Of a stretch of 64,000 nucleotides of DNA, positions 149-62,762 are shown in pieces. The translations under genes and the position numbers were made by a program. This DNA is from Niabella aurantiaca DSM 17617 (GTDB lineage Bacteria > Bacteroidota > Bacteroidia > Chitinophagales > Chitinophagaceae): assembly GCF_000374125.1 (NCBI RefSeq), contig NZ_KB893648.1:1-64000 (forward strand), read 5' to 3'. Under the pieces are notes generated by a model that saw nothing but the letters and a program-made list of their open reading frames with translations, was not told where the DNA came from and searched no databases. Every line of letters starts with the position of its first letter. The stretch's first letter is position 1.

Positions 149-269
149 AATTCAGTCACATTCAATTGTGACAACGAAAGGTAAGTCAAAAAGCAAATAA
201 CATTTAGATTTTTGACACGTTAATTTTTCTCTTGAGAATTTTTAATAGTCAGTAGTCAAACTCATTTAC

Positions 270-1794
<1,525 letters not shown>

Positions 1795-1807
1795 TAGAGC
1801 TATGTAC

Positions 1808-1827
1808 GGGTTGAATATTTTCAACCC
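1808..1827 (+). other. Hairpin just after 16S
   Basis: GGGTTGAA and TTCAACCC form a perfect 8-base stem with a 4-base loop directly after the 16S 3' end and inside the pre-16S processing stem. There is no T-run, so it is a structural or processing element rather than a terminator. Confidence 0.5.
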
Positions 1828-1837
1828 CAGATTTACC

Positions 1838-1863
1838 GTGCTGTTGTTTCCTATTCTTTCAAA
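1838..1863 (+). other. 3' arm of the pre-16S processing stem
   Basis: This segment is complementary to 124-148 (two helices separated by a small internal loop). It closes the 16S precursor into a stem and is the likely RNase III target. Confidence 0.6.
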
Positions 1864-1951
1864 TTTATTTAGCGTTCTTTTAAATAAAAGACAAGCCCGA
1901 GGGTTAACGGAGGCAATCATCTCGAGGCCCCTTTAGGGGTTTGGGGTATAG

Positions 1952-2026
1952 AGATCCGTAGCTCAGCCTGGTTAGAGCACTACACTGATAATGTAGGGGT
2001 CACCAGTTCAAATCTGGTCGGGTCTA
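1952..2026 (+). tRNA. tRNA-Ile (GAT)
   Basis: A full cloverleaf can be drawn. The acceptor stem is AGATCCG with CGGGTCT (one G-U pair), the D-arm begins TAGCTC, the anticodon loop reads ACTGATAATG with anticodon GAT, and the T-arm is CCAGTTCAAATCTGG. The discriminator base is A2026 and CCA is not encoded. It sits in the 16S-23S spacer with tRNA-Ala, the usual pair for this position. Confidence 0.95.
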
Positions 2027-2033
2027 CTTTACA

Positions 2034-2056
2034 AGCTGATAGCTATCAGCCTTTAG
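2034..2056 (+). repeat. Heptad repeat and palindrome between the two tRNAs
   Basis: Three 7-base units begin with AGC (AGCTGAT, AGCTATC, then AGCCTTT), and 2035-2050 is a perfect 16-base palindrome. The same AGCTATC/AGCCTTC word recurs at 62700-62720 in the cydA-cydB spacer, so this is one member of a dispersed family. Confidence 0.5.
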
Positions 2057-2058
2057 AT

Positions 2059-2132
2059 GGGGGGTTAGCTCAGTTGGCTAGAGCATCTGCCTTGCACGCA
2101 GAGGGTCATCGGTTCGACTCCGATATCCTCCA
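2059..2132 (+). tRNA. tRNA-Ala (TGC)
   Basis: The acceptor GGGGGGT pairs with ATCCTCC (two G-U pairs), the D-arm is GCTCAGTTGGCTAGAGC, the anticodon loop CTTGCACG has anticodon TGC, and the T-arm is ATCGGTTCGACTCCGAT. The discriminator base is A2132 and CCA is not encoded. It is the second tRNA of the rRNA spacer. Confidence 0.96.
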
Positions 2133-2192
2133 CAAGTCAAATTTGAGGATGAATAATTTGAGGATTTGAAAAAAAAGAGTTCTTTTAAGATG

Positions 2193-2236
2193 AGATAAAG
2201 CCTGAGAGGCTCCGATGGTTCGAAACCATTTTATCT
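2193..2236 (+). other. Three-way junction RNA element in the 16S-23S spacer
   Basis: AGATAAA (2193-2199) pairs perfectly with TTTATCT (2230-2236). Inside it are a 4-bp hairpin at 2200-2210 and a 6-bp hairpin at 2215-2229. The second hairpin can also be read as a tRNA T-arm with a 7-base TTCGAAA loop, so the element looks like a tRNA that has lost its anticodon arm. Folding is by eye. It may be a tRNA remnant or a processing element. Confidence 0.5.
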
Positions 2237-2305
2237 GCAAAAGTCGAATGAGGTTTGAGGTATATGATTTAGGTTGTGTAGTTTCAGATTTTCATGAAGA
2301 CCAAG

Positions 2306-2336
2306 TTCTTTGACATATTGGAAAAAAATAAACTGT
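2306..2336 (+). promoter_or_regulatory. Pre-23S leader: boxA-like motif and 5' arm of processing stem
   Basis: GTTCTTTGACAT matches the boxA-like motif upstream of 16S. ACATATTGGAAAAAA followed, after a short bulge, by CTGT (ending 2336) is complementary to 5327-5346 downstream of the 23S gene. Together the arms enclose the entire 23S gene, as expected for an RNase III processing stem. Confidence 0.7.
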
Positions 2337-2514
2337 TAGGAGAGTACCTAACAGCCCGACGCGAGTCGGGTTCGATCACAATTTTTGAAACATCACACTA
2401 TAATTATTATGGTTGGTCTGAAGAAATGTGGTCGGGTAACAATCTACAATTAAACTAAAAAATAAGTCCAAGCGGGAGCTTGGCCTCATTAAAGAAGTTT
2501 ACGAACTTTTTTAA

Positions 2515-5305
<2,791 letters not shown>

Positions 5306-5326
5306 TTTTTTTATTAGATCTCTTCT

Positions 5327-5347
5327 GACAGTTTTTTCCAATATGTT
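5327..5347 (+). other. 3' arm of the pre-23S processing stem
   Basis: GACAGTTTTTTCCAATATG (5327-5345) is the reverse complement of the pre-23S leader around 2313-2336, apart from a bulge of about five bases on the 5' side. It lies 22 bases after the 23S end. Confidence 0.7.
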
Positions 5348-5354
5348 AATCTTA

Positions 5355-5389
5355 TTAGATGTTAGATATTAGACGATAGATGTTAGACA
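5355..5389 (+). repeat. Five tandem heptads between 23S and 5S
   Basis: Five consecutive 7-base units fit the consensus TTAGAYG/A with few changes, for example TTAGATG at 5355-5361 and TTAGACA at 5383-5389. They directly follow the pre-23S stem. See the heptad findings for the same periodicity at other loci. Confidence 0.7.
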
Positions 5390-5435
5390 TTTTAGTGCTG
5401 CATTTTTAGTTTAGTGTTTTACATTTTTAATTTTT

Positions 5436-5547
5436 TATGGTGGTTATACCAAGGGTGTTCACCTCTTCCCATACCGAACAGAGAAGTTAAGCCCCTTATG
5501 GCCGATGGTACTGCACCACAATGCGGGAGAGTAGGTAGCTGCCATTC
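5436..5547 (+). rRNA. 5S ribosomal RNA
   Basis: The terminal stem is formed by TGGTGGTTAT (5438-5447) with GTAGCTGCCAT (5535-5545). Between the arms are the 5S landmarks CCATACCGAACAGAGAAGTTAAG (5469-5491) and ATGGTACTGC. Length of about 112 bases is normal. It is the last gene of the operon and is followed by a terminator. Confidence 0.95.
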
Positions 5548-39565: not shown

Positions 39566-39574
39566 AAAACTGAA

Positions 39575-39628
39575 AAAGCTGCTTCAAAAGACGGGCAATC
39601 GCAGAGAAGGGACTTTTGAAGCAGCTTT
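39575..39628 (-). terminator. Intrinsic terminator after the 39.6-kb lipoprotein gene
   Basis: Two 16-base arms, 39575-39590 and 39613-39628, are perfect reverse complements with a 22-base loop. On the minus strand the second arm is followed by a run of five T. It ends the lipoprotein gene transcript (stop at 39644) just before xerD. Confidence 0.85.
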
Positions 39629-39643
39629 ATTATTGTTGCTTGA

Positions 39644-40321: not shown

Positions 40322-40369
40322 TCCTTGTTGTTTAGATCGTTATAAAATAGATGCAGGTCGCTAATTTAC

Positions 40370-40456
40370 AAATTAACGGTGAGTTATCGGCAATCAGCGT
40401 TGAGAATTGAAATTTCAGACAGGTCGCTCAATTCCCGATTCTCAGATCCCTATTCT
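40370..40456 (+). repeat. Two degenerate heptad arrays filling the spacer before yraN
   Basis: Array 1 (40370-40418) has seven 7-base units of consensus NNNT[GC]AG, with T fixed at position 4 in six units in a row, for example CAATCAG at 40391-40397. Array 2 (40429-40456) has four units of consensus CNATTCY, for example CGATTCT at 40436-40442, and runs into the yraN stop codon. A 7-base inverted repeat (TGAGAAT near 40402 and ATTCTCA near 40438) links the two. Confidence 0.7.
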
Positions 40457-40812
40457 TAAAGAAACACATCCTCGATCAGAAAATATTCGGGCGGCTGGCC
40501 GGTGCGGATGGTGATCGACAGGATGTCATACTGGATGCGGCAATGCCCGGGATGCTGGTAGAGGAACTCATCGGCAGCCTGTTGTAAATACCGGAATTTC
40601 TTTTTCGTAACGCTGTCTTCCGGATGGCCATATTGGTTGCTGCTTCGCGTTTTTACTTCTACAAAATGCAGTTTACCCTGTTTGGTGGCGATGATATCGA
40701 TCTCATAATGCGAATAACGCCAGTTCTGGAACAGGATGGCATAATCGTTTTCTGCCAGGTACGCCCGGGCAAGGGCTTCCCCGTGTTTTCCCAATTGATT
40801 ATGTGTCGCCAT
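40456..40812 (-). CDS. yraN: YraN family endonuclease-like protein (UPF0102)
   Basis: A 118-residue cytoplasmic protein. The first third reads MATHNQLGKHGEALARAYLAENDYAILFQNWRYSHYEIDIIA, the family signature (GxxGExxAxxxLxxxGYxILxxNxRxxxxEIDIIA). It then has HFVEVKTRSS and a final helix. The residues E-I-D and E-V-K fit a PD-(D/E)XK nuclease core, so DNA or RNA cleavage or repair is inferred. Length is normal for the family. It is divergent from manA with about 40 bases between the starts. Confidence 0.9.
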   Translation of the reverse strand: MATHNQLGKHGEALARAYLAENDYAILFQNWRYSHYEIDIIATKQGKLHFVEVKTRSSNQYGHPEDSVTKKKFRYLQQAADEFLYQHPGHCRIQYDILSITIRTGQPPEYFLIEDVFL

Positions 40813-44726: not shown

Positions 44727-44729
44727 TTT

Positions 44730-44757
44730 GGGATTTGAAATTTGGGATTTAAGATTT
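44730..44757 (+). repeat. Heptad array directly before rhaM
   Basis: Four 7-base units of consensus GRRATTT, such as GGGATTT at 44730-44736 and again at 44744-44750. On the coding strand of rhaM this reads AAATCCC-type units directly upstream of the ATG (44726), so the array lies in the 5' untranslated region or promoter of that gene. Confidence 0.75.
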
Positions 44758-44793
44758 GCGGAACATCTGTTAAGACACGACGAAAGCACCAAA

Positions 44794-58967: not shown

Positions 58968-59066
58968 TGAGACGTTAGTTAGTGGGAAGCTGGATAGTGA
59001 AATGTGCGCGGGTAAAAGGGGAAGCAGATTTTTTCACTGGTCAACTTTTTATTTCTCACTAATTAA
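58960..59066. repeat. Long inverted repeat between the adaptor and transporter genes
   Basis: TTAATTAGTGAGA (58960-58972, overlapping the adaptor stop codon) and TCTCACTAATTAA (59054-59066) are perfect 13-base inverted repeats, with a nested pair AGTGAAA (58996) and TTTCACT (59032) inside. The ends also carry TAGTG units spaced 15 bases apart (58965, 58980, 58995). It may be a MITE-like insertion or an mRNA structure that tunes expression of the transporter. Confidence 0.6.
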
Positions 59067-59098
59067 ATTTCACTTCTTATAATAAAAGATATCAATTT

Positions 59099-60682: not shown

Positions 60683-60862
60683 TGAGGGCATTTCCGGTTT
60701 GTTTGAAGCTAGCGTCCGTTCGCTGCCTGATGCGCATTCGCAGTTCTATATATTGCTCACGGATTCCACGGATATTTATGGAATTCTGTGAGCGGCTTCT
60801 CCCGGTACCATCATTTATGCAGAGGGCAGGGAATATTGAATCTAAAATCTTTCCGTTTGAGG

Positions 60863-60911
60863 GCTGATAGATGACTGCTGAAAGCTGATCGCCCTCAACT
60901 CAGAACTTTGC
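60863..60911 (+). repeat. Degenerate heptad array before the YdcF-like gene
   Basis: Seven consecutive 7-base units keep a 7-base phase, the first four close to GCTGAWA (for example GCTGATA at 60863-60869 and GCTGAAA at 60877-60883) and the last three ACTCAGA/ACTTTGC-like. The same GCTGAT word appears in the tRNA spacer at 2035 and its reverse in the cydA-cydB spacer at 62700. Confidence 0.6.
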
Positions 60912-62650: not shown

Positions 62651-62699
62651 CACGAATATTTATTTATGGTGAAGACCGGGAGCAGAGCATCGGGTGATC

Positions 62700-62762
62700 A
62701 GCTATCAGCCTTCAGCTCTCCGTTCCGGTGCCAACCTGAAACGTTGAATTTTAAACCTTGAT
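62700..62762 (+). repeat. Two heptad arrays in the cydA-cydB spacer
   Basis: Array 1 (62700-62720) has three units AGCTATC-type with AGC fixed, and array 2 (62735-62762) has four units of consensus CCTTGAA (for example CGTTGAA at 62742-62748). The same two words occur at 2034 and 44794, respectively. The two blocks occupy about half of the 129-base spacer. Confidence 0.7.

Follow-up and report, generated by a model that had tools for sequence, protein, structure and literature searches.

The spacer between the yraN gene and its downstream neighbour in the window, by which is meant the whole stretch of 64,000 nucleotides that was analysed, raises the question of what a run of degenerate seven-base units is doing beside a stop codon: whether the period is genuine, whether it belongs to a wider family of arrays, and whether the words and their orientation carry a function or are a by-product of the way in which the units multiply. 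The reading preferred here, to which a probability of roughly 0.4 is attached, is that these are intergenic heptamer arrays which grow in steps of seven bases and whose core words and orientation would be constrained at gene ends without a terminator, where a function is conceivable. The parts of the spacer and the comparable arrays elsewhere in the window are collected in Table 1.

Table 1. Coordinates of the yraN spacer features and of other heptad arrays in the window.
Feature	Position	Strand	Evidence or remark
TTAGATG-like heptad array, 4.7 copies	5355-5388		Tandem Repeats Finder; between the 23S and 5S rRNA genes
Downstream gene, putative lipoprotein, 225 aa	39644..40321	-	By eye, the N terminus resembles a lipobox; no match in Pfam
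Lipoprotein-gene leader, not heptad	40322..40372	-	Conserved in an alignment of six species
Left array, degenerate heptads TTAACGG TGAGTTA TCGGCAA TCAGCGT TGAGAAT TGAAATT TCAG	40373..40418	+	Inverted with respect to the right array
Inverted repeat I1	arms 40401-40418 / 40427-40444		
Centre between the inverted arrays, ACAGGTCG	40419..40426	no strand	Read from the sequence
Right array, about four degenerate TGA-type heptads GAATAGG GATCTGA GAATCGG GAATTGA	40427..40456	-	On the yraN sense strand, from the stop codon
yraN / UPF0102 gene	40456..40812	-	Pfam PF02021, E 5e-25; stop codon adjoins the array
Heptad array TTTGGGA TTTGAAA TTTGGGA TTTAAGA	44727..44764	+	Abuts a start codon
Spacer with inverted heptad arrays	58968..59098	+	Dialects differ among six orthologs
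TGA heptads TGAGGGC TGATAGA TGACTGC TGAAAGC TGATCGC, then inverted words	60851..60906	+	
Heptads TCAGCTA TCAGCCT TCAGCTC	62670..62725	+	

The yraN gene itself has orthologs in all 30 genomes searched. The array is bounded by its stop codon on one side and by what is probably the promoter of the lipoprotein gene on the other, since the leader of that gene is conserved, is not built of heptads, and is promoter-like: it contains TTTG (40372-40369), 19 nt, and then TATTTTAT (40349-40342), an arrangement which resembles the Bacteroidota promoter consensus. The spacer holds no intrinsic terminator of the kind formed by a GC-rich stem and a T-run, and the five Rfam matches that reach the gathering score in the window, all to rRNA or tRNA, lie at 268-5547 and not in the spacer. 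A direct repeat of 21 nt (CAGGTCGCT..., 76% alike, 66 bases apart) joins 40354-40374, within the conserved leader, to 40420-40440, which runs from the centre into the right array.

The period of seven at 40370-40456, first noticed by eye, is real. Against 1000 dinucleotide shuffles, the autocorrelation of spacer 40322-40455 at lags 7, 14 and 21 gave z = 3.7, 2.4 and 3.0 (p = 0.001 at lag 7, and p = 0.007 for the best of lags 2-30), z at lag 14 rose to 4.4 within 40370-40456, and the best 56-base scan window of the spacer was equalled in none of 500 shuffles. The columns that the initial annotation had read in the units are also there, with T at position 4 in all seven units of array 1 (in the phase used by that annotation) and C1, T5 and C6 in all four units of array 2 (CAATTCC CGATTCT CAGATCC CTATTCT). 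Two of its statements do not hold. The phase does not continue through all 134 bases of the spacer, because the roughly 50 bases beside the lipoprotein gene are the conserved leader, and the heptads occupy about 40373-40456; nor are the two arrays composed of unrelated words, since array 2 is largely the reverse complement of the array 1 word family. The local score between array 2 and array 1 is 8.0 in reverse complement (shuffles 5.3 +/- 1.0, p = 0.03) and 5.0 in forward orientation (p = 0.82), so that a single word family seems to be present in both arrays, in opposite orientations.

The initial observation proved correct, and understated. Nineteen ortholog loci were read, of which L060 and L061, with a broken yraN match, stand outside the significance test, and L058 and L059 have no lipoprotein match; the lipoprotein orthologs include those of N. 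drilacis (88%), a Niabella MAG (83%) and N. pedocola (81%), among others. In each of the five closest congeners, whose yraN proteins are 81-85% identical to that of the window, the orthologous spacer has a period of seven that none of 500 shuffles matched, so that with the window genome six of six near species are significant; and in four of the five the spacer is a clearer repeat than in the window, rather than a non-repeat. Period-7 scores are 0.47 in the window, 0.48 in G014 and 0.52-0.81 in the remaining four. Among nine more distant congeners, eight spacers are not significant (37 to 399 of 500 shuffles match), the exception being a 64-base spacer in G013 (1/500). The yraN array is thus young on the scale of the genus, given that the spacer is mostly repeat-free in the more distant congeners.

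Within the near group, G005 and G010 carry a clean array (CTCAAAT CTCAACT CTCGAAT CTGAACT...), G006 and G015 a short one and G014 an irregular one. The counterpart of the left array is TTGAGAATTGAG in G005, G006 and G014 and TTTGAGAATTGG in G010, and the right array, counted by eye, has between about 3.5 and 11 units. As its stop codon, yraN has TAA in the window, TGA in G005, G006, G010 and G015, and TAG in G014, and in G005 and G006 the TGA stop is in phase with the array. The G005 and G006 spacers are set apart by 35 bases, the length of five units; the other gaps between species at this spacer comprise five of 7 bases and one each of 5, 6 and 37. The yraN array is therefore a heptamer repeat in the general sense, with tandem intergenic 7-base units beyond chance and a variable copy number.

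The spacer is not alone. When 30 spacers of the window were scanned, seven had p < 0.01 where 0.3 were expected, and the top four (40322, 44727, 60683 and 62597) were each unmatched by any shuffle; the other places named in the initial annotation do carry heptads, 5355 and 44727 according to Tandem Repeats Finder and 44727, 60683 and 62597 according to the scan. The 5355-5388 array is in an unusual location for a variable repeat, namely the spacer between the 23S and 5S rRNA genes.

In the proposed lag-7 comparison, spacers exceed both shuffled and coding controls. In 460 kb of the window's own genome that had not been chosen for arrays, 19 of 223 spacers pass the period-7 threshold, against 0.4 in shuffles; at the other periods between 4 and 12 the number of passes ranges from 0 to 7, and among coding controls it is 0. 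With a stricter threshold of 0.5 and more data, in which chosen stretches are included (nine of the 20 sampled stretches had been picked for TGA matches), 37 of 501 own spacers and 23 of 275 spacers of relatives pass, compared with none in either set of shuffles, and 7/672 own coding genes and 0/322 in relatives have the period. Pooled spacers give z values of 6.3, 4.2 and 4.5 at lags 7, 14 and 21; lags 2, 3 and 6 are higher still (7.4, 14.1 and 7.9), as is expected from missed coding sequence and short repeats. Across 1576 spacers from six genomes (2.46 Mb, chosen stretches included), spacer-by-trinucleotide matches at period 7 number 587 against 150 in shuffles, while periods 5, 6, 9 and 10 are near the shuffle level and period 8 is weaker (240 against 135). 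The spacing of TGA forms a comb, with values at 7, 14, 21, 28, 35 and 42 bases of 3.0, 3.4, 2.4, 2.0, 1.6 and 1.5 (off-comb 0.9-1.4), and, when the partly chosen stretches are left out, of 2.5, 2.7, 2.0, 1.5, 1.5 and 1.3 (off-comb 0.9-1.6). In 2.13 Mb of coding sequence, chosen stretches included, there are no sense TGA runs and two TCA runs. A genome-wide heptad family with locus-specific words, as had been supposed, does exist, and neither of the two outcomes that the initial annotation had named as refuting it was observed.

Several features of the sample bear on these and later figures. The stretches from G014 and G015 were not on the regular grid, and some hold listed TGA matches. The linker, polarity, terminator and comb tests were rerun after a doubly counted 40 kb of G006 (L139, L140) had been removed, and again without the chosen stretches; their results stand, with fewer cases. 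Among 480 pairs of orthologous spacers (chosen stretches included), AAC/GTT arrays are common to 10 where 1.7 are expected and TGA/TCA arrays to 8 where 1.3 are expected, but these pairs are not independent, and the same holds for related genomes and for repeated pairs of one spacer. A single universal core of TGA was considered and abandoned, since the most conserved triple varied in 69 arrays found by period alone (chosen stretches included): AAA in 16, AGA in 6, TCA, ATC and CAG in 5 each, and others in fewer.

The arrays instead separate into two classes according to the behaviour of the four linker bases. In 37 TGA arrays of at least four units, adjacent linkers are alike to 0.70, against 0.34 between arrays, and 64 of 182 are exact copies; neighbours are, at 0.699, hardly more alike than units permuted within the array (0.680, sd 0.010). 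In 43 AAC arrays, adjacent linkers are alike to 0.41, against 0.36 between arrays and 0.41 after permutation, and 5 of 143 are exact: the core is constant, and the linkers are nearly independent draws from one common list, AAC N T N R (chosen stretches and doubled 40 kb included in the list). The TGA class, with its locus-specific words, looks like local duplication on the evidence of its units, and the AAC/GTT class does not. The array of the yraN spacer belongs to the first, TGA-like class. A clean slippage signature was also sought in the lengths of insertions and deletions, and there is no overall peak at 7: lengths 6, 7 and 8 occur 12, 12 and 10 times in orthologous array spacers and 7, 7 and 6 times in other spacers (the doubled 40 kb included), in species that have diverged to a mean protein identity of 83-94% by pair. 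By eye, AAC arrays in L106, L146, L153, L126 and L167 have a flanking head that resembles GCATCAAACGGATCCAAC and may be a dispersed element. A head shared beside AAC arrays in general (like ATCRGGCATYAAACGG) was rejected, as no 9-mer occurs in more than 5 flanks and the 9-mers of the head occur in 3.

The AAC/GTT class is strongly oriented with respect to gene ends, as these were placed by a simple gene caller. Within 25 nt after a STOP, GTT and AAC arrays number 36 and 3, against 1096 and 941 for single words (p 3e-7), and within 25 nt before a START, AAC and GTT arrays number 17 and 2, against 1328 and 865 (p 0.009); once the chosen stretches are left out, the counts become 27:2 (p 6e-6) and 14:2 (p 0.04). 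The polarity of the TGA class is not significant at either end (within 25 nt before a START, 4 TGA and 10 TCA arrays; p 0.29 against single words).

The arrays also occupy terminator-less gene ends. Among convergent and tandem spacers, terminator-like structures are found in 1 of 104 with arrays and 117 of 965 others (p 9e-5), or in 1/72 and 94/703 without the chosen stretches (p 0.001), and in convergent spacers alone they are found in none of 21 with arrays and 32 of 168 without. Matching for length gives an expectation of 15.4 terminator ends where 1 was found (chosen stretches in the first set of this estimate, and the doubled 40 kb, included). The exclusion may belong to the site, since array-free orthologs of array spacers are also terminator-poor, with terminators in 4 of 60 pairs, the figure for pairs in which both members are array-free being 66 of 282 (chosen stretches and doubled 40 kb included). 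No swapping of arrays for terminators between orthologs was seen.

On the preferred reading, of arrays constrained at gene ends, arrays of the TGA type would begin beside a stop codon, where extra copies might cost nothing, and would gain and lose units through duplication or slippage of 7 bases. Core words and orientation would then be kept because phased cores at ends without an intrinsic terminator could be read by a factor, as RNA or as DNA, the first candidate for this reader being either Rho-type termination or an RNA-binding protein whose pitch is fixed at 7 bases. The AAC/GTT class would need selection or a core-writing process, because a kept core with free linkers is hard to obtain by slippage alone. 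In favour of this reading are the excess at period 7, the significant spacers of all the near species, the contrast in linkers between the classes, the polarity of the AAC/GTT class, the scarcity of terminators, the arrays common to orthologous spacers and the lack of sense TGA runs in coding sequence. A number of results weigh against it: the indels have no peak at 7, the neighbours in TGA arrays are hardly more alike than permuted units, array spacers have no extra RNA stability, the TGA class shows no significant polarity, the array-free orthologs are poor in terminators, and seven of the genome's own coding genes carry the period.

The alternative that survives best, a possible one if short of probable, is that the arrays are neutral heptanucleotide satellites, generated by 7-base polymerase slippage wherever DNA does not encode protein, with words, orientation and placement that mean nothing. 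The locus-specific words and exact adjacent copies of the TGA class agree with it, as do the gaps of 35 and 7 bases at the yraN spacer (beside the three of other lengths) and the rarity of arrays in coding sequence, and slippage by 7 nt has already been proposed (Mrazek 2007, as quoted in passages of PMC4679880 and PMC4692102). It is harder to reconcile with AAC-class linkers that are nearly independent around an intact core, with polarity at both STOP and START, with the near exclusion of terminators, and with indels that overall have no peak at 7. The suggestion in the initial annotation that the arrays are slipped-strand relics stands to the extent that copy number changes between species as predicted, and falls short in that the AAC/GTT linkers and orientation are unexplained by slippage alone; its other suggestion, of an active repeat generator, is not supported.

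A more specific proposal, and a rather unlikely one, is that the AAC/GTT arrays constitute a periodic recognition code, in which a 3-base core recurs at a 7-base pitch with free 4-base linkers and would be read one way at gene ends by a putative multimeric factor; slippage would supply the units, and the reader protein would set the pitch, perhaps in a lineage-specific manner. The distribution of cores across the phylum is relevant here. Five TGAs at a 7-base pitch are present in all 17 Niabella genomes and in 121 of the 198 Bacteroidota genomes, or 62 of 103 genera, and five AACs at this pitch in 17/17 and 107/198, where the chance estimate for a five-core pattern is about 0.02 per genome and the matches are overlapping windows rather than arrays. 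The pattern read backwards is no clean null, since in an array built from a single word all the triples of this word recur with the same period, and the controls used instead were period 6 in Niabella and period 8 in the phylum. TGA at pitch 6 occurs in 4 of 17 Niabella genomes, and at pitch 8 it is present in 45 of the 198 genomes of Bacteroidota, so other pitches exist too. G207 has 34 TGA octad matches and neither TGA nor AAC heptad matches; G209 has 112 TGA octad matches and no TGA heptad match, but 55 AAC heptad matches. These two genomes seem to have changed pitch, which suggests a pitch that is specific to the lineage. Arrays of TGA at period 8 are seen in the Bacteroidota sample in G207, G209, G195, G128 and G159. 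G007 has 24 TGA hexad matches beside 27 TGA heptad matches, its period-6 TGANNN units being mostly TGAGGT/TGAGAT (e.g. C13:3350-3400), and in each of the remaining 16 Niabella genomes the hexad count is 0 or 1. In G208, which has 506 overlapping TGA-heptad matches, the 100 matches listed belong chiefly to a single CTGANNG dialect, with one array of at least 39 units in which TGAACCC and TGACGGC alternate.

It is improbable that the arrays act as inverted pairs, forming RNA hairpins or DNA cruciforms that serve as unusual terminators or attenuators. Both orientations do occur together in 20 of 933 tandem spacers, where 3.4 would be expected if they were independent, and in 21 of 25 spacers with both (chosen stretches included) the TGA/GTT/TTG/GAG/CTG side comes first, the opposite order being seen in some CTGA-dialect spacers. 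A spacer of G006 contains mirror units, and at 58968..59098 the arms match within a species (13.3) better than across species (8.7) or after shuffling (7.3); the array-free spacer 39566-39643 likewise has a self match above the cross match (15.5 against 9.5). Most array spacers are nevertheless single-armed, and their RNA is no more stable than that of array-free spacers (z -1.39 against -1.02, p 0.45, chosen stretches included), a second comparison giving a similar result. Self-complementarity is similarly close, with a mean z of 1.61 and 1.24 against 0.87 in controls and values above 2 in 23% and 25% against 19% (chosen stretches and doubled 40 kb included), and permutation of linkers left it unlowered (mean z 0.11 and 0.01), so that a hairpin was rejected as a general explanation. 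Integron attC sites carry 7-base AAC and GTT boxes; kinship with them is not claimed, because the arm order here, GTT then AAC, is the reverse of theirs.

Less probable again is a role as upstream translational control sites, of the kind proposed for the TAACTGA repeats of Beggiatoaceae, to which the sense-oriented AAC arrays before START codons and the array that abuts the start codon at 44727 would be suited; GTT arrays after STOP codons are more numerous, 21 of 189 convergent spacers carry arrays, and the yraN array is separated from the gene that follows by that gene's conserved leader. That the pattern is chance selected by eye, which its post hoc choice and the low score of the window copy (with G014 the weakest of six orthologs) might have suggested, is a reading that the ortholog comparison has already refuted, in company with the shuffles of 30 spacers and the genome and phylum statistics.

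Short tandem repeats of seven bases with fixed words, the STRR family, occur in cyanobacteria, in another phylum, and the initial annotation had likened the present arrays to these; the period is alike, but kinship would rest on the period alone, STRR copies are near-perfect where the window copy is degenerate, and a closer anatomical match is offered by the published Xanthomonas heptamers and by the TAACTGA repeats. A survey of many kinds of prokaryote (Mori 2018, SPADE, PMC6344855) reports that, of the tandem repeats in intergenic DNA, those with a unit of seven are the most abundant, and that their function is without a clear clue; the parts of it drawn on here treat clear periodic repeats and say nothing of degenerate arrays of core plus linker, of orientation or of terminator exclusion. 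The TAACTGA direct repeats, as presented in sections of MacGregor 2015 (PMC4679880), are intergenic repeats with a TGA core in Beggiatoaceae, cyanobacteria and five Bacteroidetes; other heptamers are intermixed with them, contigs end inside the arrays, and the shorter spacers of relatives lack them. That system has one fixed word, placed in the main species mostly just before start codons, whereas the Niabella arrays have many locus words, inverted pairs and placement at gene ends, and extend by core pattern to the 121 Bacteroidota genomes counted above. The TAACTGA unit is absent from the yraN spacer by reading, and its rotation TGATAAC is one word of many among the matches listed in Niabella.

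The Xanthomonas GGGAATC / GGGANTN and Nostoc GGGGA(T/C)T heptads have conserved and variable positions, and according to the passages of Rehm 2015 (PMC4692102) used here those of Xanthomonas form convergent inverted pairs (70 and 75 cases in two genomes), lie 28 nt from the 5' neighbour gene and 160 nt from the next, are commoner between convergent than divergent genes, and change rapidly between species. Most of this anatomy is shared, as so described: the period of 7, the variable positions and, in the yraN spacer and part of the other arrays, inverted pairs placed close to where the upstream gene ends. The Xanthomonas word is of the G-quadruplex kind; Niabella has several dialects, an AAC/GTT class and no G-tract word, with no repeated GGG tract, by reading, in the yraN spacer or among the 20 commonest words of each array class (chosen stretches and doubled 40 kb included). 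On the strength of these sequence comparisons, the family is a variant of the known intergenic heptamer repeats with a putative role at gene ends. The open-licence literature, searched by title and abstract start, yielded no description of a core-plus-independent-linker class, of the orientation rule or of terminator exclusion.

The Niabella arrays give a handle on the old puzzle of bacterial repeats in sevens. One genus offers orthologous arrays at different stages together with two separable classes, and the orientation rule at stop and start codons in one class, with the near exclusion of terminators, makes the question of why seven a testable one. As a minor observation, a 1.14-Mb contig of G000 starts inside a perfect (TGAGATT)n array (C1:6-43), so arrays of this kind may break assembly.
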